From the NCBI GenBank assembly GCA_020058765.1, contig JAGVDM010000005.1:62001-126000 (forward strand): 64,000 nucleotides of DNA, read 5' to 3'. Made by a program: the position numbers and the translations under genes. Of this stretch, positions 12,708 to 29,084 are shown piece after piece. The notes below the pieces were generated by a model that was not told the DNA's origin, ran no database searches, and saw nothing but the letters and a program-made list of their open reading frames with translations. Every line of letters begins with the position of its first letter. Within the stretch, counting starts at the first letter, position 1. This DNA is from Candidatus Peribacterales bacterium (GTDB lineage Bacteria; Patescibacteriota; Gracilibacteria; Peribacterales; Peribacteraceae).

Positions 12708-14825
12708 CTACTCATGATTTCGGTAGAGTACCACATACTGTTGCGGGATCGCATATGCCGCACTCTGTGCACACCCCCACGGCTCTTCTGTAAATTCCTC
12801 TTCCAAATACGCTGTTACTTCATCGTGCAAATCAGCCAGTGCAAATGATTCCTGCACCACTAGTTGGGCCTCACTGAGTGCTCGCAGGAATTCTGCGCGG
12901 AAGTACGTTCGATCGGGAGAGAGTGAATATCCATACTGCATGAACAATGGGCCCATAGGGGAATGCTTTGTGTAGGCATACGGCTGCGGTCCATTCTTCC
13001 CAAGGAAGAAATACCGATCGATCCCACATGCATCGAGAATCTCATCTACTGCAGCTGCTGCTTTCTGTGCAGATACAGGCTCCTGCTGAAAGATTTGCAG
13101 TAAGTGGGAATAATTCATGGTCGCATGAGAACACATCGCCCACGTCAGGAGCAGAGTATTGAGAGTTAATACTGAGAATGCCACCCTGCTTCGATCATGA
13201 TAGATATCTTGAAAAAAGCGGAGGAAAATAGCCGCATACAGTGGTACTGCAAAAACAAAATGGTGGTTGAAGTAGACATTGGTCATTGCAACCGCGAATG
13301 TAGTGAACGTAATAGCAAAAAGCAGTGAACCGATCGGTGGCATCATGTCTTCCAACGATCGTGATTGCTTCCAGCGTATCCACAGCGAATAACCAGTCAT
13401 AAGGGCAATGCTCCATACGAATCCTGTGGAAAAATCCTTCACATCCAGCCATAGGCGATGCCAGTTCAGAGCACGAAATACTGGCGAACCGCTCTGGGGA
13501 ATATGATGACCAAACATTTCCCCGAGATACACTGCGAGATAAGGCCATAGGTATCCCAAAGCCATCATCGCGACTAATCCGAATAACGCGGCAAGAAGAA
13601 GCGGTTTAAAGAAACGCTGCAGAATATCTGGAAAATGTCCCACTGTAAGCACTAATGCACCTGCAAAGAGGGAAAGAATGAATGGCTCTTTAAAGCCAAT
13701 CGCTCCAAGAAGCGGGATACTGGCAATAAGCAATACCCTGTTGGCAATCGGCTTGTCGCACCGGGCTACAATAAGTAGGTAGAGCACGCCCAAAAATGCT
13801 CCGTACGACTCAATTTGCGCTTCGCCACTGCGCAGCATGGTATACAGCCCAATTCCAATACCAAAAAACACGGTGTTCACAAGCAGGAACACCATCCGCG
13901 CATCACGAAGACCTTTCAGTGTCAGTGTGTAATTCAGTACATACCAAATGAAGAGCACATAGGGGAAACCGACAAGAATGGCACCCTGCATTAGATGCAA
14001 AAGTTGTGGGCCATCGAATAGTGCGAGTGAAGATGCGGCGAGTAAAAACATGCCCGGTGGCTTATTTTCAAACAAATCTACATATGGCGTAAGACCATTG
14101 AGAATGCCCCGACCCAAAGCGAGATACAGACTCAGATCAGCTGTATACGGATTACTCAGCTCGTAAAAGACTCTGGCGAAGAGCGCGTCAAAACCCCGAA
14201 CCGCCCCCAACACGATACATACAAAAATTGCTGCCTTACCAAAGGCAATACATTGCTTCCACTCGCGTGCAGTAAGCCATCCGTGTTTCGTCGCTGTTCC
14301 AATTATTTTCCGTATCTGCTGGGTACCCAATGCACCACACACTATGCATACAAAACAGAAAAGGATGATGAGGGAAAGTGGGTCGTAGGGTGGCACACGC
14401 ACATCCAAGCCAGCTGGCCAACCAAGATTGCGCATATGCACTGCAATATGATTTTCGCCTGGCTGTAAATACGACAGGAGGCTCGCTGATCTTCCCATGC
14501 GAAAATTACAAAAAGGGAAAATGCTGTCTGTCACCGTACTGCCATTGATGATCAAACGATCAATGCAGTCATCTGGCATAAAATACAGAGATGTAGGGTG
14601 TACACGCGGAAGATGTACAACAAACTCCACAGCGAACTTTCCTGGGGGAGCACCTTCCACAATCAGTGGGAACGACGCGGCATTCCATTTCGCATCATCA
14701 GCAAACTGATATGCCACACTGGAAAATGTGGGCCGGGTAGAAACAAACACACACACCAGCAACGCAAAACCCATCGCGACAAGCAGAATCTTTTTCCACC
14801 ATTTTTTTGGACGCCGCATAAACAT
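12708..14825 (-). CDS. GT39/ArnT-like membrane glycosyltransferase with N-terminal DDC/ING domain (copy A)
   Basis: This 705-residue protein has a signal-anchor helix (residues 12-30), then an extracytoplasmic beta-rich domain of about 120 residues with FMPDDCIDRLIINGS, PFCNF and LQPGENHIAVHMRN. Next comes a multi-helix GT-C core whose first loop reads YTADLSLYLALGRG then DLFENKPPGMFLL, the acidic and KPPG motifs of GT39/ArnT-like enzymes. A C-terminal soluble tail of about 130 residues follows the last helix. The domain between the first two helices is shared with five other proteins in this locus. The likely activity is transfer of a sugar from a polyprenyl-phosphate donor outside the membrane. 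The ATG follows a TACACT box by 9 nt. Confidence 0.75.
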   Translation of the reverse strand: MFMRRPKKWWKKILLVAMGFALLVCVFVSTRPTFSSVAYQFADDAKWNAASFPLIVEGAPPGKFAVEFVVHLPRVHPTSLYFMPDDCIDRLIINGSTVTDSIFPFCNFRMGRSASLLSYLQPGENHIAVHMRNLGWPAGLDVRVPPYDPLSLIILFCFVCIVCGALGTQQIRKIIGTATKHGWLTAREWKQCIAFGKAAIFVCIVLGAVRGFDALFARVFYELSNPYTADLSLYLALGRGILNGLTPYVDLFENKPPGMFLLAASSLALFDGPQLLHLMQGAILVGFPYVLFIWYVLNYTLTLKGLRDARMVFLLVNTVFFGIGIGLYTMLRSGEAQIESYGAFLGVLYLLIVARCDKPIANRVLLIASIPLLGAIGFKEPFILSLFAGALVLTVGHFPDILQRFFKPLLLAALFGLVAMMALGYLWPYLAVYLGEMFGHHIPQSGSPVFRALNWHRLWLDVKDFSTGFVWSIALMTGYSLWIRWKQSRSLEDMMPPIGSLLFAITFTTFAVAMTNVYFNHHFVFAVPLYAAIFLRFFQDIYHDRSRVAFSVLTLNTLLLTWAMCSHATMNYSHLLQIFQQEPVSAQKAAAAVDEILDACGIDRYFFLGKNGPQPYAYTKHSPMGPLFMQYGYSLSPDRTYFRAEFLRALSEAQLVVQESFALADLHDEVTAYLEEEFTEEPWGCAQSAAYAIPQQYVVLYRNHE

Positions 14826-14834
14826 GCAGATTCT

Positions 14835-14840
14835 AGTGTA
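14835..14840 (-). promoter_or_regulatory. -10 box for the copy A gene
   Basis: TACACT on the minus strand ends 9 nt before ATG 14825, again predicting an almost leaderless transcript. Confidence 0.4.
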
Positions 14841-14912
14841 TTGGCGAATGAGCTCAATGTGAACTCCCAGTGCAGGACATCGTGGGCTGCTCTATGATGC
14901 TACAGATTTCAT

Positions 14913-16712
14913 ATGCGATTGCGCCGCTCCATCGCCTTCATCGGCATTGACCTCCTGCTTATTGCCATCGCATTCCTATTTTTTACTGCGAGTTGGCAAG
15001 TGACGCACTTACGTGTGGAACGCACTGTATTTACCACGAATGCGTACCGAACCCCCTTGGTTACAGATGCGCATCCTATTTGGCTGCCACCAGGTACAAC
15101 GCAGGCGGAACTGACGACGGATTTTACTCTCGGGTGGATCCATCCAGTATTATTGCAATTCCGACCAAATGACTGCTTAGAATCGATACGATTGAATGAT
15201 TACGACATCACGAGTACGAAAATCCCCTATTGCAATCATCTCCAAGACCAAACGATCCGTCTTGGGCAATATTTACGTACAGGAAACAATACTTTGTACG
15301 TACATCTCCGTAATCATGGAGGTGATGCCACCTTAGCATTCAGCGTGCCATGGTATGACCCAATACGAATTTCACTTCTCATCTGTGCATGTATCCCTCT
15401 GATAATCATTTTCTGGAAGCACACCAAAAATATGCGAGGAAAAGGGCAAAAAACAGAAGTGCTCCTCGGCGTCGCAATCGCTGGTGGCGTGCTCCTTCGT
15501 GTGTTCTACCTTGCCGTTACACCCTTCCTCATACGCGGCCATGATGTGTGGGGACACATTGAATACATTGAATACATGGCTGAATATTGGAGTATTCCAC
15601 TTGCTCGAGACGGGTGGCAATTTTATCACCCCCCACTCTATTACATGCTCACAGGGGCATGGTACGCCATTGGGGCATCCTTTGGCCGTGGCCGCCAGAT
15701 GTTGATTGGCGATGTGCAGATGATTTCGCTTGTACTGTCTGTGATCACATTCGTACTTGCAGCGGTATGGATCGGAAAATTACTCTTCCCAAAGAAAACC
15801 GAGCAAACCGAACGGACACTCTTCGCTGCGATTCTTGCTACGTTCCCGAGCTTCGTCTTTTTTGCAGGGCGAATAAATAACGACGTACTGCTGTTATTCT
15901 GGTCTGTGCTCGGCATTGGGTATTTGCTGGTCTGGTGGCGACACCAGGGCAAAAGGATGCTGCCTTGGTTCTTCTGCATCGTCATGATCGCACTCGGGAC
16001 ACTTACAAAAAGTAATGCACTTCTTCTTATTCCCGCACCATTCATTTGCCTTGTAATGCTCCAATCCATGAAATGGAGAAAGCGAATTGCCATTGGTTGT
16101 ATGGGCATATTGCTGTTTGTACTTCTTACTGGCTGGCATGCATTTCTGCGATTTGGTGTAGAAAAACATACCTCTGTAGTGGCGAACATTACCCACTTGA
16201 ACCAGAACTTACGTGTAGATAATTCTGTGCGAAGCTTCACAACATTCGCTCCATCGCGAATCGTACAAGAACCGTACAATGATCCGTTTGATGAACAATC
16301 AGGTCGCCGTTGGTTCTTCGAATACCTCTTCAAAAGCGCATTTTTTGGTGAATTTCACTTTGGATCAGGTTTTTATTTCCTATCTTCACTCATCCTCCTC
16401 AATGCCTTAGTACTGCTTCCCATTATAGGAATTGGCCTATGGCAAGCGTGTACATCGCGGCTCCGTACAGACCTCCCCATGCTTCTTGTCCTTCTCTTCA
16501 GCATTGGGGGTCATTTGCTCTATCGACAAACCGCGCCATTTAGCTCTTCGCAGGACTTCCGCTATTCAATTGTTTCCTTGCTCCCACTCGCATACTTTTT
16601 GATTACAGGCATACGATCAATGCCGCAGAGTTTTCAACGACCGGCGCTTGCAGTTGCCTACGGCGGAGTATGCTTCTGCGCGCTTTTCCTTGGCGGCATA
16701 GGACCCATATAA
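14913..16712 (+). CDS. GT-C membrane glycosyltransferase with N-terminal DDC/ING domain (copy B)
   Basis: A 599-residue protein with a signal anchor at residues 7-28 and an outer beta-rich domain carrying FRPNDCLESIRLNDYDI, PYCNH, LRTGNNTLYVHLRNHGG. A polytopic core follows, whose first loop has IRGHDVWGHIEYIEYM and, after about 25 residues, YHPPLYYML. Acidic residues plus HPPLYY are typical of GT39-like GT-C enzymes. It is divergent from copy A and lies 46 nt before the FAD oxidoreductase, which has its own promoter. The substrate is unknown. A TATGAT box 14 nt before the ATG is a possible promoter. Confidence 0.75.
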   Translation: MRLRRSIAFIGIDLLLIAIAFLFFTASWQVTHLRVERTVFTTNAYRTPLVTDAHPIWLPPGTTQAELTTDFTLGWIHPVLLQFRPNDCLESIRLNDYDITSTKIPYCNHLQDQTIRLGQYLRTGNNTLYVHLRNHGGDATLAFSVPWYDPIRISLLICACIPLIIIFWKHTKNMRGKGQKTEVLLGVAIAGGVLLRVFYLAVTPFLIRGHDVWGHIEYIEYMAEYWSIPLARDGWQFYHPPLYYMLTGAWYAIGASFGRGRQMLIGDVQMISLVLSVITFVLAAVWIGKLLFPKKTEQTERTLFAAILATFPSFVFFAGRINNDVLLLFWSVLGIGYLLVWWRHQGKRMLPWFFCIVMIALGTLTKSNALLLIPAPFICLVMLQSMKWRKRIAIGCMGILLFVLLTGWHAFLRFGVEKHTSVVANITHLNQNLRVDNSVRSFTTFAPSRIVQEPYNDPFDEQSGRRWFFEYLFKSAFFGEFHFGSGFYFLSSLILLNALVLLPIIGIGLWQACTSRLRTDLPMLLVLLFSIGGHLLYRQTAPFSSSQDFRYSIVSLLPLAYFLITGIRSMPQSFQRPALAVAYGGVCFCALFLGGIGPI

Positions 16713-16738
16713 ACAGATGAAGCCGCGTATCTGGACTG

Positions 16739-16747
16739 TGCTACAGT
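16739..16747 (+). promoter_or_regulatory. Extended -10 promoter of the FAD oxidoreductase gene
   Basis: TGCTACAGT ends 11 nt before ATG 16759. Confidence 0.45.
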
Positions 16748-16758
16748 AGCGCAAATCT

Positions 16759-18390
16759 ATGACGAAGCGCGCAATTATCGCTGGTGCTGGACCTGCCGGA
16801 CTCACGGCTGCGTATGAGCTCCTTGCCAGGACAGACATACGCCCATTGGTCTACGAGATGAGCGACATCGTTGGTGGTATCGCCCAGACGTACAACTACA
16901 AGGGCAATCGCATCGATCTAGGAGGACATCGATTTTTTAGTAAGAGCGAGCGCGTAATGCGCTGGTGGTTCAATATTCTTCCCCTACAAGGAGCGCCCGC
17001 TTCCGACGAGAGTGGGCAAGATCCAGATGCAGAATATGCGGCAGAAGTACTGATGAAATACCTCTGCCCGGAATGCTCCCCTACTGGCGAATGTGATGTA
17101 CGGCGCAAAGGACCTGACCCCGAACAGGAGGACGAGGTAATGCTGCGACGCAATCGCATTTCTCGCATTTTCTACAAGCGGCAGTTCTTTTCCTACCCCC
17201 TCAGTATCACGCTCACCGTTGCGTGGCGATTGGGTATCGTGAACACCGCCCTTATCGGAGTGAGCTACATTCGAGCAAAGCTCTTCCCACTCAAAGACGA
17301 AACCTATTTGGATGCGTTCTTCATTAATCGATTTGGGCGACGTTTGTACAAGACCTTCTTTAAGGATTACACCGAGAAAGTATGGGGTGTTCCTTGTGGG
17401 GAAATTCGCGCGGATTGGGGGTCACAACGCATTAAAGGATTATCCCTAAAACGTGCGGTTGTGCACGCTCTACGAGACCTGTTGAGTAGTGATTTTCGCA
17501 AACAGCAGCAAGAGCGCGAAACGAGCCTAATCACTCGATTTTTCTATCCGAAACTGGGGCCGGGTCAAATGTGGGAAACGGTCACAAATCAGGTGCAAGC
17601 ATGTGGTGGTGAAGTACACCTTCATCATCGTATTTCTGCTGTAACAGTGAAGGACAAACGCATTGTTTCAGTCACAGTAGAAAATGTGCAGTCTGGGGAA
17701 ACATCTGAACAAGAGTGTGAGTACTTCTTCTCCACTATGCCCATCAAGCACCTTATTGGGATGGTTCGACCACATCCGCCGGCACGTGTCAGCGAAGTAG
17801 CCGATGGCCTGCAATACCGAGATTTTCTTACGGTGGGACTTCTGCTGAAGAAGTTGCATGTAGAAGAGGCGAAAAAAGAACCAAGTGCGCGTATTCCTGA
17901 TACATGGATTTACATTCAAGAGGGCGACGTAGAAGTGGGGCGCGTGCAAGTATTCAATAACTGGAGCCCTTACATGGTGGCCGACCCCGAAAACACCGTG
18001 TGGATAGGGCTGGAATACTTCGTGAATGAAGGCGATGCATTGTGGGTACGCCCAGATGAAGAACTCATCGAATTGGGAATCCAAGAAATGATCTCGATTG
18101 GTTTTCTGCGCAGAGAAGATGTTCTTGATGGCTGTGTGCGACGCATGCCAAAGGCATACCCGGCGTATTTTGGGAGCTACGACCAAATGCACGTGGTCCA
18201 GGAATATGTGCAAGAAATAGAAAACCTCTTCTTGATCGGCCGGAATGGTATGCACAAATACAACAACCAAGATCACAGCATGCTCACCGCCATGGTTGCG
18301 GTGGATAACATCCTTGAGGGCCGAACCAATACCGATAACATCTGGTCTGTGAACACGGAGCGTGATTACCACGAGGAAAAGACTGCATAG
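16759..18390 (+). CDS. FAD-dependent NAD(P)-binding oxidoreductase (amine oxidase/UDP-galactopyranose mutase-like)
   Basis: The 543-residue protein opens with a dinucleotide-binding motif [14 protein letters not shown] and [22 protein letters not shown], followed by NILPLQG and [17 protein letters not shown]. It ends with the FAD-closing [22 protein letters not shown]. This pattern is common among flavoproteins in polysaccharide loci that are annotated as amine oxidase or UDP-galactopyranose mutase-like; their substrate is not settled. A Cys-containing insertion near residues 101-112 (CPEC, then a third Cys six residues later) stands out, and a role in metal binding is possible but unproven. 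It sits between a GT-C and a GT2-GtrA gene, so a sugar-nucleotide or polyprenyl intermediate is plausible. Confidence 0.75.
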
Positions 18391-18409
18391 CCCTCGCACC
18401 CGAAAAGTC

Positions 18410-18417
18410 GCTACACT
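18410..18417 (+). promoter_or_regulatory. -10 promoter element of the GT2-GtrA gene
   Basis: GCTACACT ends 8 nt before ATG 18426. Confidence 0.45.
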
Positions 18418-18425
18418 GCCTTCGG

Positions 18426-19523
18426 ATGTTCTCCCTTGTCCTCCCTACCTACAACGAGGCAGAAAACCTGCCCGAGCTCCTCCCCAAAATCAGGGAAGTA
18501 CTGAAGGATATCCCACACGAAATTATTGTGGTGGACGATGATTCCCCCGATCACACGTGGGAAGTGGCTCTTCACCTCACGCAAGAAATGCAGGACGCGC
18601 ATGTAATACGCCGAGTAGGCAGAAGAGGTCTTTCTTCTGCGATCATTGAAGGATTTCTTGCAGCAAAGGGAGATGTACTTGGCGTGATGGACGCAGACGG
18701 ACAGCATGATATTGACCTCCTCCCTCGCATCTACAGCGTCGTGCAGGGCAACACCGATCTCGCTATCGGCTCTCGGTACGTGGAAGGCGGGAGTATTGGC
18801 ACATGGGATGAGCGACGACACGCGCTCAGCAGACTTGCGACCAACCTTGCCCGTTGGCTCTGCAAAGTACGAGTAGAAGATCCTATGAGCGGATTCTTTG
18901 CTATTCGGCGATCAACATTTGAGGCAACGATGCCAACACTGAATCCAAAAGGCTTTAAATTGCTTCTGGATATTCTAGTACATGCCCCTCGAACAACGCG
19001 CGTGCAGGAGATACCGCTCCAGTTTGGCGTGCGCACGCATGGGGAAAGTAAACTCTCTCGCAGGGTACAGATCGAATTCATTGAATACCTCTACGACGTG
19101 ACCTTCGGGAAGTACATCCCCCTCGTATTCGTAAAATATTGCATTGTCGGCTTCGTGGGTGTGTTCGTACACATGGGCGCGTACACACTTGCTGCAGCAG
19201 CCTTGCGGCATGGGAATGACCTGACTATTGGTAATTTTTCACTCTCAGTGGGTATAGCTGTTGAGACAGCCGTGCTATTCAACTTCATGCTCAACAATCT
19301 TTGGACATTTGCACGCGATCGCCTGCGTGGATTTGCTGCAGTGCTGGGCTTTCTCAAATTCAATGTCGCATGCATTTTTGGCGCATTAGCGAATATGGCG
19401 GTGAGTACATTTCTCTTCTCTCGCGGCTTCCCCGAATTTATGAGTGTAATGGTTGGAGCATGTACTGGTGTGGTCTGGAATTACACTATGAGCCGACTTC
19501 TGACGTGGCGAGGCAAGATGTAG
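18426..19523 (+). CDS. GT2 polyprenyl-phosphate sugar synthase fused to a GtrA-like membrane domain
   Basis: This 365-residue protein joins two modules. Residues 1-230 form a dolichol-phosphate-mannose-synthase-like GT2 (LPTYNEAENLPELL, VVDDDSPDHTW, VMDADGQHDIDLL, DPMSGFFAIRRS). Residues about 235-365 form a four-helix GtrA-type domain (FVKYCIVGFVGVFVHMGAY, ETAVLFNFMLNNLWTFA). GtrA proteins are proposed to flip polyprenyl-phosphate sugars, so the fusion would make and translocate the donor used by the outward-facing GT-C enzymes nearby. Such fusions exist in other bacteria. The start is supported by the promoter element 8 nt upstream. Confidence 0.85.
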   Translation: MFSLVLPTYNEAENLPELLPKIREVLKDIPHEIIVVDDDSPDHTWEVALHLTQEMQDAHVIRRVGRRGLSSAIIEGFLAAKGDVLGVMDADGQHDIDLLPRIYSVVQGNTDLAIGSRYVEGGSIGTWDERRHALSRLATNLARWLCKVRVEDPMSGFFAIRRSTFEATMPTLNPKGFKLLLDILVHAPRTTRVQEIPLQFGVRTHGESKLSRRVQIEFIEYLYDVTFGKYIPLVFVKYCIVGFVGVFVHMGAYTLAAAALRHGNDLTIGNFSLSVGIAVETAVLFNFMLNNLWTFARDRLRGFAAVLGFLKFNVACIFGALANMAVSTFLFSRGFPEFMSVMVGACTGVVWNYTMSRLLTWRGKM

Positions 19524-19549
19524 AAAGGTTGCAATGCTGTGAAATGCGC

Positions 19550-19555
19550 TACACT
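19550..19555 (+). promoter_or_regulatory. -10 promoter element of the copy C gene
   Basis: TACACT, preceded by TGCGC, ends 10 nt before ATG 19566. It excludes the longer frame from 19539, whose start would lie upstream of the box. Confidence 0.45.
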
Positions 19556-19565
19556 AGCGCCCGCT

Positions 19566-21383
19566 ATGCCAAAGCGGAATACATCTTCGGAGAAACGAAT
19601 GCTCGTGATTGCCCTGCAACCGCGTGATCTATTGTTCTTCGGTATCTTCATTATTGCGAACCTCTTTCTCCTACGCATACTCGCGGAACCATCTATTGGC
19701 CCTGTTCGCTACCAGTATGCCGGCTTTGATTGGCAAACAGCGGAGCATCCTCTCTTTGTTCCATCGGAATCGAAAGAACTCACTGTGGAGCTGCCTCTAC
19801 AGCTCTCGTGGTTGCACCCAAATGTGTTCTACGTAAAACCGGATGACTGCATGCAGCAGCTCGTAATCAACGATGTCGTATTCAAAGGTGAAAGTGAGAA
19901 TTTCTGCGATTACTCCACTCTGGGGCAACCATTGGATATGAGTGCGTACCTCAAAGCAGGTGAAAACCTGCTGCGGTTTACGTTGGTTGATAATGGGGGC
20001 AAGGGCGGCTTACGCATTACCCCTTCGCGTACCGATGGCATCTTACTTACCCTCAACCTCCTGCTGATCCTCTCTTCTGCGGGCTTAGCGCTGTTGGCTT
20101 GTGCCCTCTTTGCGAAGAGCAAACTACAACGACAGCTCCTCTCAATTTTTGTTGGAGGCAGCGCACTGCGCTTGTTATACATGCTCTCAACGCATTACTT
20201 CGTTCGTGGGCACGATACCGACGACCACATCAAATACATTCGGTTTGTGGCGGAGAATTTTGCGATGCCACCAGCAAGCGAAGGCTTTGTGTTCCACCAC
20301 CCGCCGCTCTACTACTTCATAGGAGCACTGGTGATGCGTTTCGATTTCCTACTAGGACGATCGCATGATGAAGTTATTTTGCATGATCTACAGGTGTTGT
20401 CGCTCATTCTCTCAATTGCGACGCTGGGAATTGCTGTATGGATCGCGCAAAAGCTCTTCGCGCGGCAAGGGGCATATGCCGTGCTCTTCCTCTCGGTAGT
20501 TGCAACGCTCCCCAGCCTCATCTTCCTCGCTGCACGCATTACAAACGGCACACTAGATATTCTACTTGGCTTCCTCTGCTTTGGGCTGCTTGTGCAGTGG
20601 TGGCAATCCCGACGGCCAAGGGACTGGTATTTGCTCGTGATATGCATCGCATTCGCATCGCTTACGCGCATCAACAATCTTGCCTTCCTTCCTATTGCGT
20701 TCCTCCTCTTTCCTCTCATCAGCCGTATTTCTTGGCGGAAACGTGTGGGGCACTTTATGGCAGGATCGTTGCTCTTTGTATTGCTCACCATCTGGTTCCC
20801 TATCCATCGCTTTGTTACAGAAACAGATAAATCGAATATGTTCTCTCTTGGGAACAACGCGATGCATTCTGGCTTGCGACTGGAAACAACAATCGAAAAT
20901 GTCTTCACGTTCAACCCGATCGCTTTCCTACGGGTACCGTTCAATCACCCATGGGAAGATATGGCTCGTCGGCAATTCTTCCCGGAGTATTTCTTCCGCA
21001 GTGCCTTCTTTGGTGAATTCCAATTCCCAGACATATTCGTTGGCCTCGCGGAAGTACTGCTATTTGTAGCATCTTGCGCGTTGATATTCCTCGTCATCGG
21101 TTTCTGGAAAGCAGGCATTCTGCGTATTCGGGAGAGTTTGCCGATTACCTTGCTCTTTGTGCTGCTCTTTGGCGCACAGATGGCATACAGAGTTTTCGCT
21201 CCATACAGCGCAAATCAGGACTTCAGGCATTCTCTTCTACTCCTCCTGCCTATTTCGTACTTCATTTTGACAGGTATCCAGGAGTCGCCGAAATCCTTTG
21301 CTGCCTTCGGTCGATACCTCGTAGTCACCATGGCATCACTGTGTGCCGCATTCATTGTGCTTCTGCACTTCTACGAATCGTAG
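19566..21383 (+). CDS. GT-C membrane glycosyltransferase with N-terminal DDC/ING domain (copy C)
   Basis: The protein has 605 residues from ATG 19566 (MPKRNTSSEKR). A signal anchor lies at about 20-38, then the outer domain with VKPDDCMQQLVINDVVF, NFCDY, LKAGENLLRFTLVDNGGKGG. The polytopic core begins near residue 160 and has VRGHDTDDHIKYIRFV and HHPPLYYFIGAL in its first loop, clearly paralogous to copy B. Closely similar late motifs (FNPIAFLRVPFNHPWED, FFRSAFFGEFQF, SANQDFRHS) occur in copies B and D, so B, C and D form one subfamily. A sugar or phosphoglycosyl transfer on the outer membrane face is inferred. Confidence 0.75.
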   Translation: MPKRNTSSEKRMLVIALQPRDLLFFGIFIIANLFLLRILAEPSIGPVRYQYAGFDWQTAEHPLFVPSESKELTVELPLQLSWLHPNVFYVKPDDCMQQLVINDVVFKGESENFCDYSTLGQPLDMSAYLKAGENLLRFTLVDNGGKGGLRITPSRTDGILLTLNLLLILSSAGLALLACALFAKSKLQRQLLSIFVGGSALRLLYMLSTHYFVRGHDTDDHIKYIRFVAENFAMPPASEGFVFHHPPLYYFIGALVMRFDFLLGRSHDEVILHDLQVLSLILSIATLGIAVWIAQKLFARQGAYAVLFLSVVATLPSLIFLAARITNGTLDILLGFLCFGLLVQWWQSRRPRDWYLLVICIAFASLTRINNLAFLPIAFLLFPLISRISWRKRVGHFMAGSLLFVLLTIWFPIHRFVTETDKSNMFSLGNNAMHSGLRLETTIENVFTFNPIAFLRVPFNHPWEDMARRQFFPEYFFRSAFFGEFQFPDIFVGLAEVLLFVASCALIFLVIGFWKAGILRIRESLPITLLFVLLFGAQMAYRVFAPYSANQDFRHSLLLLLPISYFILTGIQESPKSFAAFGRYLVVTMASLCAAFIVLLHFYES

Positions 21384-21535
21384 TGCATTGCTCGGAGGAA
21401 TACCTCACACGCGTACTCCCTTCTCCTACGGTGCTTATAAGCAGCGCAGGAGCATCTTGGTTGCCCCTGGCTGGGTAGAGTGCCAAACGCATACATAGTG
21501 CCTTCTAGGAGGGCGTGAGTGACTATACGCCCCAT

Positions 21536-21564
21536 ACAAAAACTAGCCCCTCACGAAGAGGGGC
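21536..21564 (-). terminator. Intrinsic terminator downstream of copy D
   Basis: On the minus strand GCCCCTC, a 5-nt loop, GAGGGGC, then TAGTTTTTG. The 7-bp GC stem plus T tract fits a Rho-independent terminator about 60 nt after the stop of the gene ending at 21626. Confidence 0.7.
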
Positions 21565-21581
21565 AATACATAATACAAAGA

Positions 21582-21595
21582 ACCCCCGCAGGGGT
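21582..21595 (-). terminator. Weaker hairpin upstream of the main terminator
   Basis: ACCCC and GGGGT arms with a 4-nt loop lie between the copy D stop and the stronger hairpin. On the minus strand it is followed by TCTTTG. The rest of the 21384-21625 gap shows no gene. Confidence 0.4.
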
Positions 21596-21625
21596 ATTGA
21601 AGATGCAAAACATAGAGGAGCTCTT

Positions 21626-23554
21626 CTACGTACCGAAGAACGCAACGATCGAGAAGATAAACGCGATCGTACAGAACAGGAACGATGAGAGGATATGCCA
21701 ACTCACCTTTTGCATTGATTTGGGCAACAACTGAATACCAGAGAGTACGTAGTAACTCGCAGGAATGATTACCGGCGCAATAAAGCGGAAGTCTTGATTG
21801 CATCCATATGGCGCCACTGTTCTGTATGCAATGCCTGCAAGCAAGAACATGGAAGCCATAGCCCAAATTGGCGTCTGCCCGCGCCAATCTGCCCGTAATT
21901 TCCGGTACAAGCCGTATACGCCAATCGCAACCATCGGAATGCCAAGAAGCAATACAAGACCCGCAAGAGCTGTCTCTTTGTGGCCAAAGTCCCACTCACC
22001 AAAGAAGGCACTGCGATAGAGATACTCCCAGTAGAAACTCCTGCGGAATTCATCCGACCAGGGATTATTGAATGGGTGCTGGAATATACCGATTGGATTG
22101 AAAATCAGGAGCTGTGAAATACTTGGATCGAACCGTAACCCGATATGAAGAGCGTTCAGGTTGCCAACGATTGATGTCTCTCCGTAGAGCAAAACCCGCA
22201 GTAATAGATACCATGCAATCAAGAGGATCGACAGAATTCCTCCACCAATCGTCATAAGGATTTTCCTCGGCCATGTAATACCTTTTTTGAAGAATACAGT
22301 GATGAGTGCAACGGGTACCAAGATCATTCCATTTGTTTTGGTAAGCAACGCTGCTGCAATCAATACCCACAAAGCGATCCATGTTGCCTTACTGTGACTC
22401 CCCCACCACTGCAGCAATAGTGCAAAGAACAACGTGCAGATGAAAAACAGCAAAACATCGTTTGAAATTCGAGAAGACATGAACACAACCCCCGGAACGG
22501 TACCGATGAGAAGAATGAACAATGGTTGGAACATACGTTCCTTGGCGCCTGAAAATAGTTTTGTGGCAATCCACGCACACACAGAAAGCGAGAGTGTCAT
22601 GAGGAGCCACGACAGTGTTTCCGTATCATTAATGAGAGCGGCTTGGCTACGCTCCAAACCTGCGCCTATAAGCCACCACAGAGATGCGAGCGCGTAGTAC
22701 AGTGGCGGTTGGTAGAACTGCCAACCCTCTGCGCTGTACCCCTCGGCAGGAGGAATGACCCACATTTTATGCAGGAATTCGATGTAATTGACGTGCCCAT
22801 CCGCATCGTATGAGAAATGGGAGTACGTAAACCGACCGCTGTATATGAGTGCAATACCTGCACAGAACGCAACGGCACCAATGAGCAATGGGAAGAAGTG
22901 CTTCTTGCGCTTGATCCACAGGAACCAACCCACTGCACCAAAGAGGGTGGAGAAGACTATGAGTTTAAAGATGGAATACAACGGGTCTCCACCAGAAATG
23001 CCGAAGCGGAAAATGACAAACCCACCATCGTCACGAATGCGTGCTTTTATATGATTTGATCCTCCTGTGAGGTAACCGCTGAGATTGACGGACTTCCCCT
23101 CGAGGTTACAAAAACTGAATGTGTTCCCCTTACTATCCATGACGACTTTTCCGTTAATCTCCAACGATTGCAGACAGTCATCTGCAACAATTCTGAATTG
23201 CCATGGATGTACGGCGAGTACATGTGCATTGAATTCCACTTCAACGATATTCCCAGCGCTAAACGCGTACAGCGGTAGATCTGTTTCTTCCCACTCGCCC
23301 TCTTTGACTGGATACAGAGGAGTGACAAAATTGAGACGATCGGCATTGGGATATGCTGGCTCCCATTCCTTGGTACCTTGATACATTTCCTGGCGCTCAA
23401 CATCACCAATGAACTTTCCGATTGTTCGATACTTCACATCAGAAAACTGCATTGAAAAAATCTGTGACGTCACGAGATACAGCAGCGCCAGGCCTCCTGC
23501 TGCCAGCGCAACCGTCGCCACTGATTTCTGCCGATGCTTCTGGAGAAAACTCAT
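21626..23554 (-). CDS. GT-C membrane glycosyltransferase with N-terminal DDC/ING domain (copy D)
   Basis: A 642-residue protein with a signal anchor at 12-32 and a longer outer region of about 185 residues, including RIVADDCLQSLEINGKVV, FSFCN, LTGGSNHIKARIRDDGG. The GT-C core follows with YDADGHVNYIEFLHKMW and FYQPPLYYALASLWW. Late motifs FNPIGIFQHPFNNPWSDEF and YLYRSAFFGEWDFG match copies B and C. The extra segment before the DDC motif (about residues 35-85) is unique to this copy. ATG 23554 lies 15 nt after an extended -10 TGATATGAT. Two hairpins follow its stop. Confidence 0.75.
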   Translation of the reverse strand: MSFLQKHRQKSVATVALAAGGLALLYLVTSQIFSMQFSDVKYRTIGKFIGDVERQEMYQGTKEWEPAYPNADRLNFVTPLYPVKEGEWEETDLPLYAFSAGNIVEVEFNAHVLAVHPWQFRIVADDCLQSLEINGKVVMDSKGNTFSFCNLEGKSVNLSGYLTGGSNHIKARIRDDGGFVIFRFGISGGDPLYSIFKLIVFSTLFGAVGWFLWIKRKKHFFPLLIGAVAFCAGIALIYSGRFTYSHFSYDADGHVNYIEFLHKMWVIPPAEGYSAEGWQFYQPPLYYALASLWWLIGAGLERSQAALINDTETLSWLLMTLSLSVCAWIATKLFSGAKERMFQPLFILLIGTVPGVVFMSSRISNDVLLFFICTLFFALLLQWWGSHSKATWIALWVLIAAALLTKTNGMILVPVALITVFFKKGITWPRKILMTIGGGILSILLIAWYLLLRVLLYGETSIVGNLNALHIGLRFDPSISQLLIFNPIGIFQHPFNNPWSDEFRRSFYWEYLYRSAFFGEWDFGHKETALAGLVLLLGIPMVAIGVYGLYRKLRADWRGQTPIWAMASMFLLAGIAYRTVAPYGCNQDFRFIAPVIIPASYYVLSGIQLLPKSMQKVSWHILSSFLFCTIAFIFSIVAFFGT

Positions 23555-23569
23555 ATTTGGTTGGCGCCC

Positions 23570-23578
23570 ATCATATCA
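23570..23578 (-). promoter_or_regulatory. Extended -10 promoter of copy D
   Basis: TGATATGAT on the minus strand, 15 nt before ATG 23554, gives a leader of about 8 nt. Confidence 0.4.
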
Positions 23579-23625
23579 ACGATGTCTCGACAGGAAAGAA
23601 TGATTGAGTGGACGGGAGGGATTTG

Positions 23626-25263
23626 TCATCCCTGAAATGATTTCGTGAATATCAGGACACAAGCGGTATCGTTTGGCGGCATCTCTTCGCGCCATACAAG
23701 CTCCCACTTAGTAGGGCCACTGGAATACACGCGAGCAAGGAGATTCCTGTATTCCCCCAATCTATTGATGCCAATAAACGCGTGTGGTTGCCCCACTGTA
23801 GGACTCGACATCCAGTAAGGAGGACCGTCGTGACCTGCAAACATAGGGTCGTGTCCATCATTAATGATCTTGAGGAATGGACCCGCGGTGGATTCTAGCC
23901 ACTGAAGGGAAATCCTTGTTCCCGCTGGAACATGCTCATAGAGCGCACGAATCGCGTTATCTGTACAAATGCCCCAATAGTCTCCCATGAAGTACGATGA
24001 ATCTGTCGCAACCACCAATGGGTTCTTGTACACGTATGAGAAATACTGCCAGTGCGCATACGAAAAACCCGAAACAAAAATAATAATGCTTGCAACAATC
24101 ACTCTGTAGTGCGCTGCAAAATGCCGGAATCCCATCGCTGCCAATATTGCGACAGGAGGATATAGGAACAATAAATGGCGCTCTTCGTCGTACAGATTCG
24201 GCTGCAGAATAACCACCGTTGACCACGTAAAGATCACAAAGGCGAGAAGCCACTGGGTGAAACCAATGGAAAGAATGTACTTCTTCAGTGGAATGGTAAT
24301 CAGCAGTTGCTCGTGCCTCCTACGGATAGCTTCTACAAGACCAACCACCAGAAAGAAAAAGGCTATTGGATTCATGATCACTGGCAGCCACGCAAAGACG
24401 TACCAGCGAGGCAAAGCATCTCTCGGTACATCAAAGTCCATTCCGAACGCACGCACACTCCCGAACCAAGGATACGCGGAGAATATGCCAAAGGATCGTA
24501 CCCATTCTGCGGGATGTGTATCCCGCAGGGCAGGATACAGCGCTCCGATCAGCACAGCTGCGGTTAGCCCCGGTATAAGCGGAATGAGAAAGCACTTGGC
24601 CAAACGACACTGCGCGCCGCCAACCGTGACAAAGATGTATAAAAACGCAGTCACAATTGCTACATGCAGCGGGGGGACAGGACGAATAAGGAACGGCAGT
24701 ATTGCCACCGCACCCAAACCGATGAGCTGCACTGTTGATGCATCGCGACGTTCGTATATCTCTCGAAGAGCAACCCATGTGTAGAGAGTTGCTACCAAAA
24801 ACGCGCATGCGAATGGGAAATCCTTCTGATTCACAATTGCATGACCACCAAAACGAATCATTCCAATGAGCAATGCGATAGCGACCACCGCGGTGCTTGG
24901 ATCCAGTTTTGCCCTCAGCAATATTCTGTATACAGCAAAAAGAGTGAGCGGGAACAATGTGAATGTCAGTGCTCTTAGCACCCAAAATTCATTCTGCAAT
25001 GATGCGAAAATAGTTCTGTTTGCAGCAACAACAATTACATCAAATAACGGGCCGTACCATTCCGCGTTTGCGAGGTGCTTAATACTCGCCTGCGGACCAA
25101 GACCATACCGATACAACAACCAGGCTCCATGCCCAAGGTTGTGATTATCATCAATATTGATTGCCTGCCCAGCGGTAGCAAGAAACCCTATTGCAGTAGA
25201 AACCACTACTGCCAAAATCCACAGAAGTGGAGCGCGAAACCGATGTGGAATTGCTGCAAACAT
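23626..25263 (-). CDS. Polytopic GT-C-like glycosyltransferase without the DDC/ING domain
   Basis: This 545-residue protein starts at ATG 25263, one base after the TAA of the upstream GT2, so the two are co-transcribed. A long alternative frame to 25368 overlaps the GT2 and is rejected. The first outer loop has the acidic motif INIDDNHNLGHGAW. Later come GHAIVNQKDFPFA and NLYDEERHLLFLYPP, which recur almost exactly in the protein at 27345. About eleven hydrophobic segments. GT-C fold membership is inferred from topology and the acidic loop. It probably uses the lipid-linked sugar made by its GT2 partner. Confidence 0.65.
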   Translation of the reverse strand: MFAAIPHRFRAPLLWILAVVVSTAIGFLATAGQAINIDDNHNLGHGAWLLYRYGLGPQASIKHLANAEWYGPLFDVIVVAANRTIFASLQNEFWVLRALTFTLFPLTLFAVYRILLRAKLDPSTAVVAIALLIGMIRFGGHAIVNQKDFPFACAFLVATLYTWVALREIYERRDASTVQLIGLGAVAILPFLIRPVPPLHVAIVTAFLYIFVTVGGAQCRLAKCFLIPLIPGLTAAVLIGALYPALRDTHPAEWVRSFGIFSAYPWFGSVRAFGMDFDVPRDALPRWYVFAWLPVIMNPIAFFFLVVGLVEAIRRRHEQLLITIPLKKYILSIGFTQWLLAFVIFTWSTVVILQPNLYDEERHLLFLYPPVAILAAMGFRHFAAHYRVIVASIIIFVSGFSYAHWQYFSYVYKNPLVVATDSSYFMGDYWGICTDNAIRALYEHVPAGTRISLQWLESTAGPFLKIINDGHDPMFAGHDGPPYWMSSPTVGQPHAFIGINRLGEYRNLLARVYSSGPTKWELVWREEMPPNDTACVLIFTKSFQG

Positions 25264-25264
25264 A

Positions 25265-26221
25265 TTAACTTTGCTGCTTTGTTTGCTCGGCTTCATAGAT
25301 CGCTTGAATAATATACGGCGGGCGTCGGAGCACCTCGCTCTGGGCTTTGGCCAGCGTAACGGCAACAACCCACAATTGCAAAATTGCGATCATGGTGAGA
25401 ACGAGTTGTATATTGCTTCTTACAATCTCTACAGAAGGAAAGGCGACACCCACAACGAGCGCTACAAGAGCGGCCCAGACCAATGCATTCGAAAGCCAGA
25501 GTGGTCCGTTGGAGAAAAGGAAAAACGCATTGAACGCCAGATTTGTGAGCTTGCGCAATGTCTGCTTCGTGTGACCGCTGTATCGTTTTTCTTTGTTGTA
25601 CACAACGTATCCTGCATCGAACCCAATATATGCACGCAGCCCCGGGATAAATCTATTCGTTTCGTGCAGACGATTAAATTCTCCAACAAAGCGGCGGGAC
25701 ATGAGTGAAAAACTCCCCGAGCCCTCAGGAATATTCAGGTTGGTGATTTTGGAGAATACCGCATGAAAACAACGAAAAGCGAGGCGGCGAAAGGCGCTGT
25801 CCTCGCGTCGTGTTTTTACGGTATACACCACATGCTTCCCCGCTTCGTACTGCAGTAACAACTCTTGGATGAGCTCTGGGGGATCTTGCAGATCTGCATC
25901 GAGAATAATGTACACATCTGCGTCCGATTGCTCGATGCCTGCCGTGAGTGCGTTAGCATGACCAAAATTCCGCGAGAGCTGCACAATCTTCATTGGCAAC
26001 TTGGACGTAGCCTGCAGTGCAAAAAGTTTTTCGAGCGTACGATCAGTGCTTCCGTCATTCACCAGCGTGAATGAGAAGCTGTACGGTAATCCTTCCACTG
26101 CTTTTTGGCAGCGTCGCACAAACTCTTCAATTCCGCCTTCCTCGTTATAGACTGGCGCTATCAGCGCCACTCGGCGCGATACACCGAGTGATGCTGGCGC
26201 ATCACTTTTGTTTCTTTCCAT
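25265..26221 (-). CDS. Family 2 glycosyltransferase, polyprenyl-phosphate sugar synthase (GtrB/DPM-like)
   Basis: The 318-residue protein has the GT2 domain (IAPVYNEEGGIEEFV, LVNDGSTDRT, SRNFGHANALTAGIEQ, LDADLQDPPELI, EGSGSFSLMSRR) and two C-terminal transmembrane helices near residues 230-300. These are the features of GtrB-like undecaprenyl-phosphate glucosyl- or mannosyltransferases. ATG 26221 overlaps the end of the upstream small gene by 20 nt. The downstream GT-C starts one base after its stop. The trio looks like one operon: outer-domain protein, donor synthase, transferase. Confidence 0.85.
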   Translation of the reverse strand: MERNKSDAPASLGVSRRVALIAPVYNEEGGIEEFVRRCQKAVEGLPYSFSFTLVNDGSTDRTLEKLFALQATSKLPMKIVQLSRNFGHANALTAGIEQSDADVYIILDADLQDPPELIQELLLQYEAGKHVVYTVKTRREDSAFRRLAFRCFHAVFSKITNLNIPEGSGSFSLMSRRFVGEFNRLHETNRFIPGLRAYIGFDAGYVVYNKEKRYSGHTKQTLRKLTNLAFNAFFLFSNGPLWLSNALVWAALVALVVGVAFPSVEIVRSNIQLVLTMIAILQLWVVAVTLAKAQSEVLRRPPYIIQAIYEAEQTKQQS

Positions 26222-26711
26222 TGCGGAAATAGTAGATGCTGTATGCATACAATCCGGCAATACACACTCCGTTGAGCAGGATATACAGCAGATACGACGT
26301 ACCCGGCTGCATAGAAAATTCCGTTACTCCGCCAAAGTCTTCTATGCGAACTACTACCTGATTATCCCCAACAGTTAGATACGAGCCGAGGTCTACCTGT
26401 CTCCTCACAAGTTCACAGTCATACTGCATATCGACTGTTTCCCCGTTGACCTGAAAATCACGTAAACAATCGTCTGCGTACACAATGAAATCCCCAGGGA
26501 CAAGGGGTGGCATACGAAGATCGAAAGTGAGCGTGGCCCAACTTCCCTGACTACCAATTGTAAAAGGTACCTCCACTGGTTGTGCGGGCTTTCCGTCAAA
26601 CTCCAATGTGGCATTCTGCACGGAGTAGTGCTGTGCAGAAAGGTACAACACTGCGATCGCAATCACGACGAATATTGTCACGACCCAAAACAGAGCATCT
26701 CTACGCTTCAT
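26202..26711 (-). CDS. Stand-alone DDC/ING-domain membrane protein (copy E)
   Basis: A 169-residue protein from ATG 26711 with a transmembrane helix at about 7-26, an outer domain of about 110 residues and a second helix near 138-160, ending in a basic tail. The domain contains VYADDCLRDFQVNGETV, a second Cys in QYDCE, LTVGDNQVVVRIEDFGG. Its layout equals the first quarter of the GT-C proteins A to D (helix, domain, helix) without the catalytic core. It leads an operon with a GT2 and a GT-C that lacks this domain, so it may be the detached subunit. No known function. Confidence 0.7.
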   Translation of the reverse strand: MKRRDALFWVVTIFVVIAIAVLYLSAQHYSVQNATLEFDGKPAQPVEVPFTIGSQGSWATLTFDLRMPPLVPGDFIVYADDCLRDFQVNGETVDMQYDCELVRRQVDLGSYLTVGDNQVVVRIEDFGGVTEFSMQPGTSYLLYILLNGVCIAGLYAYSIYYFRNGKKQK

Positions 26712-26718
26712 GGGGCAG

Positions 26719-26724
26719 ACTATA
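26719..26724 (-). promoter_or_regulatory. -10 box of the copy E operon
   Basis: TATAGT on the minus strand ends 7 nt before ATG 26711, another leaderless arrangement. It supports ATG 26711 over the upstream frame to 26744. Confidence 0.45.
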
Positions 26725-26804
26725 CGCAAGTTCAGACTGCGCATGCAACCTGGAATGGCCGCAGCAACAATTCGCTATTGTTGGCGACAGATAAAACCTG
26801 AATA

Positions 26805-27341
26805 ATGCACGCGATGATACGAAGAACAATTGTTCTGTTCTGGATTGAAACGCTCGTGTTGGCCGGGGCTGTGTGCGTCGTTGTGTTTCTCTCCGACATT
26901 TTGAGCGTCCGCTACCGCAATACACTCGTGCAATGGCAGCATGAAGCGACGCAAAGTCCCTATGAAATAGGGAAGGAATTCCGAGGGGGGCCTACGGGGT
27001 CAGTATCGGTATTCGTAGTAACGACTGAAATGTTCATGCCTCCGATTGCAAGCAGGACATTCATACTCCGTGCAGATGACAAACTGATGTCGCTCATTGC
27101 GAACGGAAGTCCCGTTGTATCACCCAGTCTGCCAGCGGCCGCGAGCCACTCAAACGTATCGATTGATCTTTCTTCTTATCTTCACATTGGGTGGAATACC
27201 CTACAGATCACCAGTGAAGATTATGGCGGCTCGGCCAAATTAAGCATGTGGCAGGATCAGCAGAAGCCGCTTGGCGTACTACTGATACAGGGCTTTGTTA
27301 CCCTGCTTGGCATTGTGTATGTCGTACGGCGCTTCTCGTAG
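26805..27341 (+). CDS. Stand-alone DDC/ING-like membrane protein lacking the cysteines (copy F)
   Basis: The 178-residue protein has the same plan as copy E: helix at about 10-30, outer domain, helix near 155-173. It contains LRADDKLMSLIANGSPVV, LHIGWNTLQITSEDYGG. The Cys after the Asp-Asp pair is Lys here, and the second Cys seen in A to E is also missing, so both partners of a probable disulfide are lost together. It ends 3 nt from the convergent GT-C gene at 27345. The start may be ATG 26805 or 26814; weak AT-rich -10 candidates fit either. Function unknown. Confidence 0.65.
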   Translation: MHAMIRRTIVLFWIETLVLAGAVCVVVFLSDILSVRYRNTLVQWQHEATQSPYEIGKEFRGGPTGSVSVFVVTTEMFMPPIASRTFILRADDKLMSLIANGSPVVSPSLPAAASHSNVSIDLSSYLHIGWNTLQITSEDYGGSAKLSMWQDQQKPLGVLLIQGFVTLLGIVYVVRRFS

Positions 27342-27344: not shown

Positions 27345-29054
27345 TTACGTCTTGCGATAATCCACGAGGACGCATACGTCTTCTCCAGTTGGCAACGTGT
27401 ATGCCCAGAGCTTCTTTGCAATCCCCTGCTCTACGTCCTCCAAAATATTTTGCGTATACCGAGAACGGCCCGGTGCAATTCTGGTAACAACTAACCAGCC
27501 ATTCTCTCGGTATCCACTACGCTCCGATAGGATATGTAGAGCGTAGTTTGGAGCGAAGCTTTTCGCATTTTTATTGCGGAATCTATCGCGTTGTAGCAAG
27601 GCCAAATGTAGATATCCCGATCCATCGAACATCACATCCCGCGGCCCTTTGTCCATGTCGATATGGTACATAGCGTGAGGCAAGCACAAGCCGAAGTAGT
27701 CCCCCATACCATCCGAAAGTGACATATCTTCTTTCAAGAGAGATGCGAGGGGGCTGTAGTAAATGTACGCATACCTTCCCCATCCGATATACGTGTATGC
27801 GGAAGCTGCAATAAGTACAACGGCAATCGAAATTTTGTAGCGATCTCGTAGGCTATCGAGCTGCAGTACAGCCCAAAGGAATATGGGCGGGAAGAGAAAG
27901 AGAAGATGCCTCTCTTCGTCATACAAATTCGGCCATACGAGGTAAATCGCGGCAAATCCCAAGAGCGATACAAAGAGAAGCCAACGGCTCAAGGAAAGTG
28001 ATGCAACACCCAACCATGTCCGCAGAACAAATGCATGACCCACTGCTTTGTGCTTCCACAAGGCGAACCCAATTCCTACAACGGATGTAATGAGCAGGAG
28101 TGGGTGCGCAATAATGACAAGCCACACGACAGGGTACCACCAAGGAAGATTCGGGTGCCGATACGTTTGGCCGAGTACACGAGTCTCGATGTTCTCGTAG
28201 AACTGAATGAATTTGCCCGCGGATTCCAATGGACTTGTGAGGCCCAACCTCCACATAGGAGGACTGCTGATATAGAGCATGCATATCGCACCTACAGACA
28301 GAAGAACTGCAAATGCAATGGAGTATGTGAGGCGTTTATCGAGCGGTCCCTTCGTAAAGAAACCGTATGCAAATACAGCGCCAATGGTGAGAGGAAAGAA
28401 AATGAGCAGAGGTGACCGCAGCAAAAACGGCAACACGCTGGCTGCCCCAATGAAAAGGAACCACACCAACGGTACCTTGCCCTTTTCCATGGATTGATGA
28501 CACCTGCGGAATGCGTCCCAAATGAAGACCGCAACGATAACGTAGGTAATTGATGCGGGAAAATCTTTGACGTTAAACAGCGCATGCCCCCCAACACGAA
28601 TAATGGAAAAGACTCCTGCGCTACCCAAGAGTGCTGTAGCCCAACTCACGCCACTTCTCCGCAAGAGCACGAATAAAATATAGAGACCGAACGGGAAGAG
28701 TGAATAGGTAAATGCGTGTCGCACCCAATACGGATCAGCGAGAAATGCGAAGTATTTGAATGCGAGAAGACTGAGAAGCGTGTCCCAGAGAGGTGCATAG
28801 TTGATTTGAGCATTCGCAGGTAACCCTTGGAGAATTTTGAATAATTCGCGACTTCTATTGAATGCAAAATGGTCATCGCCAAAATAAATTCCTTCGAAGG
28901 TGAAATGGAATCCTGCGTATACCGACAGAGCGAGTACTCCAATGGTCAACAGGAACCAGAACGCATACTGAAGACAGATGCGTACCCATGATTTTTCGAG
29001 GAAATGTTTGAAGGAGTGGTACATCCAGGCGGAAGAAGCGCTGGATCCGAGCAT
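27345..29054 (-). CDS. Polytopic GT-C-like glycosyltransferase, paralogue of the gene at 23626
   Basis: About 569 residues from ATG 29054; ATG 29024 is an alternative, and the longer frame to 29255 runs over another gene. The first outer loop has GIYFGDDHFAFNRSREL. GGHALFNVKDFPASITY and WPNLYDEERHLLFLFPP match the 23626 protein closely, so the two form a paralogous pair. Around eleven hydrophobic segments and a C-terminal soluble part of about 100 residues. Probably a lipid-linked-sugar-dependent transferase on the outer face. An extended -10 TGCTACAGT lies about 30 nt upstream. Confidence 0.65.
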   Translation of the reverse strand: MLGSSASSAWMYHSFKHFLEKSWVRICLQYAFWFLLTIGVLALSVYAGFHFTFEGIYFGDDHFAFNRSRELFKILQGLPANAQINYAPLWDTLLSLLAFKYFAFLADPYWVRHAFTYSLFPFGLYILFVLLRRSGVSWATALLGSAGVFSIIRVGGHALFNVKDFPASITYVIVAVFIWDAFRRCHQSMEKGKVPLVWFLFIGAASVLPFLLRSPLLIFFPLTIGAVFAYGFFTKGPLDKRLTYSIAFAVLLSVGAICMLYISSPPMWRLGLTSPLESAGKFIQFYENIETRVLGQTYRHPNLPWWYPVVWLVIIAHPLLLITSVVGIGFALWKHKAVGHAFVLRTWLGVASLSLSRWLLFVSLLGFAAIYLVWPNLYDEERHLLFLFPPIFLWAVLQLDSLRDRYKISIAVVLIAASAYTYIGWGRYAYIYYSPLASLLKEDMSLSDGMGDYFGLCLPHAMYHIDMDKGPRDVMFDGSGYLHLALLQRDRFRNKNAKSFAPNYALHILSERSGYRENGWLVVTRIAPGRSRYTQNILEDVEQGIAKKLWAYTLPTGEDVCVLVDYRKT

Positions 29055-29084
29055 ACCGCAATGAAATGATTGGACGCTACATGA

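Follow-up and report, generated by a model that had tools for sequence, protein, structure and literature searches.

In a 64,000-nucleotide stretch of a Candidatus Peribacterales genome (assembly GCA_020058765.1, contig JAGVDM010000005.1, positions 62,001 to 126,000 of the forward strand; hereafter the window, numbered from its first letter), we find six proteins that share a segment made of a transmembrane (TM) helix, a domain of about 110 residues and a second TM helix. Four of these segments (copies A to D) stand at the N-terminus of enzymes of glycosyltransferase fold C (GT-C) or of GT-C-like proteins, and two (copies E and F) are free. We tentatively read the segment as a portable accessory module of the EmbB kind, perhaps gripping the acceptor, in a surface glycosylation locus associated with a protein O-mannosyltransferase (PMT), with sugar binding as its presumed activity. 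What the data support directly is the homology of the segments, the predicted fold, the position of the module before the enzyme core, the joint loss of two cysteines, the attachment to several enzyme groups and the neighbourhood of PMT genes. The module is new in being unnamed in Pfam and NCBIfam and in occurring in unusual combinations; the fold and the type of layout are known.

Six copies of one module

All six segments were located where a sequence-only reading of the window had placed them among its open reading frames. Copy A (14325..14825, minus strand) opens the type-2 GT-C-like protein encoded at 12708-14825, while copies B (14913..15440, plus strand; gene 14913-16712), C (19566..20096, plus strand; gene ending at 21383 and starting at either a GTG at 19539 or an ATG at 19566) and D (22913..23554, minus strand; gene 21626-23554) open type-1 GT-C proteins, copy D with a longer insert ahead of its sandwich. 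The cores behind B and C match PMT_2 (E 1.3e-6 and 3.8e-7). Copy E (26202..26744, minus strand) is a free module of 169 amino acids, counted from its most likely start, the ATG at 26711 inside the frame that opens at 26744. Copy F (26805..27341, plus strand; 178 amino acids) is a free module that diverges from E and converges with the gene at 27345.

The alignment of the six copies spans TM helix 1, the domain and TM helix 2, and blastp among them, in a database of six, matches all 15 of 15 pairs at E values between 5e-22 and 2e-4. In leave-one-out profiles, each held-out copy scores 57-101 bits, compared with 16.6 bits for the best of 6,000 segment-wise shuffles, which rules out chance similarity. 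On this sequence evidence the six segments are homologous, confirming the earlier claim of a shared domain between two helices in six proteins. A six-frame search of the whole genome (1.17 Mb, 10 contigs) returned these six copies as its only matches at E <= 1.

The aligned motif reads [DN]D[C/K], five residues, [ILVA]N[GD] and YL-x-x-G-x-N, with the second cysteine 17-22 residues after the first and a Gly-Gly end in five of the six copies (Gly-Trp in copy A). The motif first described thus stands in its main elements, except that its IN[GD] is not strict at the isoleucine. Both cysteines are absent from copy F, a joint loss that had also been noticed and that the alignment bears out.

Searching all the loci that we fetched gave 147 hits, which reduce to 82 unique domains and to 79 after three were dropped (two edge fragments and one wrong-code copy of the gene of locus L059). 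Among these 79, both cysteines are present in 69, neither in 10 and a single one in none (Fisher p 7e-13, a naive value that ignores relatedness). Four of the 10 domains without cysteines (L140-L143) count for less, since their alignment is gapped at the second cysteine position. This joint presence and absence supports the view that the pair, now seen to be conserved well beyond the window, probably forms a disulfide. In four of the 10, all from other phyla (L081, L084, L086 and L089), the first cysteine is a histidine (PDDH) and the second is missing; another contact may replace the disulfide there. The most conserved positions of the 79 are N117 (76 domains), N89 (74), G115 (72) and P49 (70), and aromatic residues are conserved at position 75 (phenylalanine or tyrosine in 65 of 79) and position 36 (tyrosine in 48 of 79); mean column identity across the domain family is 25%.

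The tree of these domains does not group the window copies, and we therefore rejected the idea that they are six recent local copies of one gene. Copy A groups with the other type-2 protein. The two free copies of the window sit on long branches and are sisters in 4% of bootstrap trees. Most deep forks of the tree are weak, so that the free copies may nevertheless have a single origin.

Predicted fold and the enzymes behind the module

Fold matching was run on the module of copy E, and a full-length model was built for copy C. The AlphaFold2 model of copy E, made from 31 sequences (mean predicted local distance difference test score, pLDDT, 91.3; predicted template modelling score, pTM, 0.81), shows a helix, eight strands and a helix, and the common beta-sandwich between two TM helices that had been expected is present in both of the models made, those of E and C. 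Foldseek places glycosidases at the head of the matches to copy E (best E 2.1e-3), mostly of glycoside hydrolase family 2 (GH2), and lists at rank 25 the cellulose synthase chain B 5ej1_B, which we take to be BcsB. A second structural aligner gave a best Z of 11.2 (root-mean-square deviation, rmsd, 2.6 over 106 residues), and all 50 listed matches are glycoside hydrolases, mostly beta-glucuronidases, beta-galactosidases and beta-mannosidases aligned at their N-terminal domain (Z 10.0-11.2, rmsd 2.6-3.1, 104-112 residues). With the sugar-binding sandwich of glycosidases matched at Z 11.2, an entirely new fold was rejected.

Sequence searches found less. In Pfam, one of the 31 members scanned matches PF02837, below the gathering cut-off (E 0.067); NCBIfam has no meaningful match to the domain region in the six proteins, its one match to copy E (E 0.037) lying over a TM helix, and weak matches in the two databases, such as tRNA_anti-like and blaCDD, are uninformative. 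A full-length profile found no match among PDB sequences, and a domain profile found sub-threshold chains only, the best of them a GH2 enzyme (E 0.32). In a search of a genome from the same phylum, however, the domain profile detects the N-terminal domain of a GH2 protein (G684, E 8e-7; our handles begin with G for genomes and L for loci). Because of the structural matches and this profile match, we take the domain to be distantly related to the sugar-binding domain of GH2 enzymes, or at the very least to share its fold. It shares with Glyco_hydro_2_N (PF02837) and galactose-binding-like domains the same predicted fold (Z 10-11), and with the GH2 protein of G684 the L-x-x-G-x-N stretch; it differs in its TM flanks, in sitting on glycosyltransferases and not glycosidases, and in carrying the DDC motif and the second cysteine of the pair. 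The earlier statement that no described family covers the domain thus holds for Pfam and NCBIfam, whereas the fold itself, a GH2-type sandwich, is already known.

The full-length model of copy C (605 amino acids, pLDDT 88.8, pTM 0.89) aligns with GT-C structures from residue 183-189 to its end or near it in the listed rows, with the exception of AftA, which aligns from residue 155. Z scores of the core are 24.7 for ALG12, 21.6-23.1 for PMT, up to 22.8 for oligosaccharyltransferase (OST), 21.9 for ArnT and 15.4 for EmbB. The alignments start at about residue 10-70 of ArnT, PglB and OST (residue 25 of ArnT, 13 of PglB) and at residue 255 of EmbB. Because they begin near residue 184 of copy C, and in EmbB from residue 255, residues 1-183 are, by the model, best read as a module ahead of a complete GT-C core. 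GT-C enzymes carry a catalytic acid in the first outer loop, and in copy C the aspartate D217, which is invariant in 28 aligned sequences, lies in that loop; as modelled, the core is a GT-C fold with an acidic residue in its first outer loop. The positively charged residues that precede TM helix 1, together with the GT-C alignment, suggest that the domain faces outside.

The association with GT-C enzymes that had been claimed for the window is seen in the copy C model and extends to other genomes, since 72 of the 79 domains, in 71 proteins, have at least 150 residues of core behind them. These cores form four groups of 62, 6, 2 and 1 proteins, with no blastp link between groups at 1e-4 over 120 residues. 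Groups 1 and 3 both match PMT_2 weakly and may thus be distantly related members of the GT-C superfamily. The protein of copy A matches no Pfam family at E <= 1, and the sole blastp link of its core is to the core of L147 (G007). Other arrangements also occur. For example, the protein of L055 (3540-5981) has two tandem modules before its core, and in L007, L009, L058 and L136 an enzyme-like module stands ahead of the domain; it matches Pfam GT87 in both of the two tested (L007, E 2.5e-12; L136, E 2e-6) and appears enzyme-like by sequence in L009 and L058. In L007 and L009, proteins of about 1,000 amino acids, a second GT-C core follows the domain, giving two transferase modules per chain.

The window's family is represented by 74 genomes, which are also the whole sample for its order; the domain is present in 46 of them (71 matches). 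In the rest of the class, 3 of 279 genomes have matches, one solid (G101) and two marginal (G108, E 2.6e-4; G179, E 7e-4; frames listed for G108 only) that we take as chance. The match in G101 (L059) is a fused gene of 616 amino acids ahead of an FAD-oxidase gene of the window's kind; its reading frame requires TGA to code for an amino acid, here glycine, at 11 recoded codons. Among 379 genomes sampled evenly across the phylum, matches came from 12 of the window's family, its own genome included, and from G684, whose match was rejected as a member because it is a GH2 protein (Glyco_hydro_2_N, E 1.3e-30). A scan with the type-1 enzyme, through which breadth outside Patescibacteria was gauged, found 57 loci, 25 with the domain and 32 without. 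Among the 25, 17 are labelled Peribacteria, Peribacteraceae, Peribacterales or Peregrinibacteria, two are labelled 'bacterium', and six come from other phyla (Chthoniobacterales, Verrucomicrobia, Omnitrophica, Dactylopiibacterium, Fibrobacter and Alphaproteobacteria labels), all six with the domain fused to a type-1 core. Horizontal spread of the domain is likely.

The surrounding locus

The window encodes a PMT upstream in the same region (2149..3666, plus strand; PF02366 E 1.4e-30, PF16192 E 8e-16). Both PMT and the domain occur in 42 genomes, and in 25 of these they lie on the same contig, always within 12 kb of each other and in 23 genomes within 5 kb; in the other 17 they are on different contigs, so that the distance is not assessable. 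Because PMT and domain genes are such close neighbours, we regard the region as a probable surface O-glycosylation locus. Of the type-1 loci described above, 9 of the 25 that carry the domain include a PMT gene, as do 3 of the 32 that lack it.

Three genes of glycosyltransferase family 2 (GT2) accompany the copies. One lies beside copy A (11646..12647, minus strand; PF00535 E 1.2e-22) and one between copy E and the gene at 23626 (25265..26260, minus strand, listed with a TTG start; PF00535 E 1.2e-24), the latter probably a polyprenyl-phosphate sugar synthase; the third, directly before copy C (18426..19523, plus strand), is fused to a GtrA-type membrane domain (PF00535 E 1e-31, PF04138 E 8.9e-16). 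At the level of genes, the window thus holds a three-component set of GT2 synthase, GtrA-like flippase domain and GT-C enzyme. Directly after the gene of copy B lies an FAD amine-oxidase-like gene of the PRK07208 group (16759..18390, plus strand; NF005546, 789 bits). An oxidase gene of this type is found near the type-1 GT-C gene in 5 of the 25 type-1 loci that carry the domain and in 6 of the 32 that do not (L065, L081, L084, L087, L089, L090, L091, L092, L094, L096 and L112), and also in L059. These loci come from several phyla, and the two enzymes may share a pathway. Since the PMT and FAD-oxidase neighbourhoods follow the enzyme as well, the domain looks like an optional accessory.

Two further genes of the window were noted. 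A protein of 922 amino acids (4654-7422), which has no Pfam, NCBIfam or PDB match, apparently has one TM helix and a beta-rich C-terminal part, and a homologous C-terminus (L054:4947-5534) adjoins a free domain gene in G056. Rfam places a minus-strand tRNA at 62110-62181 (37.6 bits), where ARAGORN finds none.

Possible acceptor binding and its alternatives

The nearest known layout is that of EmbA, EmbB and EmbC, which, like copy C, have a TM helix, a beta-sandwich and a TM helix before a complete GT-C core; the EmbB paper describes the first two TM helices as anchors of the N-terminal carbohydrate-binding module (N-CBM) (PMC7341804). Emb proteins differ in having a C-terminal carbohydrate-binding module (C-CBM), whereas in copy C the core (residues 184-605) forms the end of the 605-residue chain. 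Sequence comparison links none of the module proteins searched to Emb, either with Pfam models (E <= 1) or with PDB chains (E <= 10), and Foldseek aligns the whole copy C model with Emb over 668-777 columns, loosely, at an rmsd of about 20. Emb is not among the 50 matches listed for copy E, which carries no weight either way. The structure 2WJS is a laminin-type domain and not of the GH2 type. It is the structure with which the EmbB paper compares the N-CBM (PMC7341804).

A second comparison is with the three-component GT136 and Gtr systems, which combine a GT2-type charging enzyme or a counterpart, a flippase and a GT-C transferase (PMC11127046). GT136 likewise carries a carbohydrate-binding module, one said to bind the O-antigen backbone (PMC11127046); it seems to lie toward the C-terminus, whereas the module of the window is N-terminal, sits on several cores and is near a PMT gene. 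In a literature search on such a domain, judged from abstracts and partial texts, papers on Emb/Aft and on three-component systems were the nearest and the rest were unrelated, and no paper on glycosylation in Peribacteria or Peregrinibacteria was found by title or abstract opening.

In the pathway that we infer, GT2 enzymes would load sugars onto polyprenyl phosphate, and the resulting lipid-linked sugars would be flipped outward. PMT would start O-glycans on exported proteins, to be extended by the GT-C enzymes that bear the domain. The module, prefixed as a portable unit to several GT-C glycosyltransferases, would be a membrane-anchored sandwich of the carbohydrate-binding type (TM helix, eight strands, probable disulfide, TM helix) that holds the growing acceptor near the catalytic site at D217, and its free copies, E and F, would act in trans as accessory subunits. 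Acceptor gripping is our leading reading because the published carbohydrate-binding modules of GT-C enzymes (EmbC, GT136) bind acceptors, and we hold it with a little less than even confidence.

Several results weigh against it. According to the EmbB paper, domains structurally related to the N-CBM bind no more than a single monosaccharide, and the acceptor is proposed to enter by the C-CBM only (PMC7341804), a path that tells against gripping because the module here occupies the place of the N-CBM; in EmbC, the C-terminal domain is the one described as binding the acceptor (PMC3044687). None of the 31 members scanned scores above the cut-off of a Pfam model, Foldseek finds nothing for copy E at E <= 1e-3, and no tryptophan is conserved among the 79 domains. 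Type-1 enzymes without the domain exist (the 32 of 57 loci given above), so catalysis does not need the module. Finally, 4 of the 46 genomes with the domain have no PMT hit, 22 genomes have PMT without the domain, and by gene neighbourhood PMT seems to follow the type-1 enzyme as much as the domain.

Some of the same evidence would suit a domain for protein-protein docking or oligomerisation, with PMT, GT2 or another GT-C enzyme as partner, in place of a sugar binder, and this main alternative is a serious contender, if not a probable one. The most conserved positions, N117, N89, G115 and P49, look structural to us, free copies exist as expected for a subunit, the fold matches include cellulose synthase chain B, itself a partner subunit, and the acceptor path proposed for EmbB is not at the position of the module. 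A docking role fits less well with the listed fold matches, which are glycosidase domains, many of them known for sugar binding, and with the high divergence of the family, which suits varied ligands.

The free copies raise separate questions. In addition to E and F, there are two elsewhere, in L054 (G056, 167 amino acids) and in L056 (G064, 178 amino acids, without TM helix 2, which may be a shortened gene); L053 was excluded as a possible third because its contig ends inside the gene. Neither E nor F has a PADLOC hit, and a defence role was rejected. Beside them in the window lie two type-4 proteins, GT-C-like by sequence and 30% identical to each other, at 23626..25368 (minus strand, downstream of E and the GT2 gene; no Pfam match) and 27345..29255 (minus strand, beside F; no significant Pfam match). 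Both lack the domain, as had been stated and as the genome-wide search confirms, and it had been proposed that E and F are split-off partners of these two enzymes, with free domain genes to be found beside domain-less GT-C genes in related genomes.

The genomes that we surveyed do not bear this out. Type-4 relatives elsewhere in the order number five strong (E <= 1e-80, in three genomes) and three weak (E about 1e-11, outside the sample fetched); none of the five strong loci, fetched with 2.3-6.7 kb a side, has a domain gene, even at E 0.1, and none of the 32 domain-less type-1 loci has a free copy in the stretch fetched (up to 10 kb a side). The free copies of L054 and L056 adjoin other genes and not a type-4 enzyme. 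By these counts of loci, the pairing of E or F with type-4 enzymes seems not to be a rule. A partnership within the window is still conceivable because the end of copy E overlaps the same-strand GT2 frame upstream of 23626, with E, the GT2 gene and 23626 in one direction; copy F likewise ends 3 bases from 27345, but it is convergent with that gene. Overall we consider it unlikely that E and F were split off to serve the adjoining type-4 genes.

Still less likely is that E and F are functionless remains of once-fused genes from which the enzyme part has disappeared. Nearly all relatives are fused, copy F has lost both cysteines, the long branches of E and F would suit decay, and copy E departs from the consensus at positions 28, 36, 103, 131 and 140. 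The frames of both are open, however, each with two hydrophobic helices (by the model for E, by sequence for F), copy E keeps both cysteines, D80, D81, N89, N117 and Gly-Gly, and the free copy of L054, in another genome, is complete. No remnant of a GT-C core was detected around them at E 0.01 in 25201-27345, and the idea of either as a stump with enzyme remnants alongside was rejected. A role of the module in handling the lipid-linked donor, or in shielding the active site, is very improbable: the two TM helices of the module would anchor it beside the catalytic core, but polyprenyl phosphate is bound within the TM core of GT-C enzymes such as ArnT and EmbB, and type-1 cores are also found without the module.

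A bolder form of acceptor gripping, which we think rather improbable, is that the module is an acceptor-recognition cassette shuffled by Peribacteria among GT-C enzymes, in front, behind or in tandem, and also used as a free subunit that serves several enzymes in trans, by which one locus could place different lipid-linked sugars onto the same PMT-started surface glycan. The interest of the module would be lower if it proved inert or merely structural. Our survey adds a family of EmbB-like front modules that occurs with several GT-C groups and as free proteins, and it makes the choice of acceptor by extracytoplasmic GT-C enzymes testable. It also points to PMT-associated surface glycosylation in the Peribacteria, a group known mostly from metagenomes, whose surface chemistry has been little studied.

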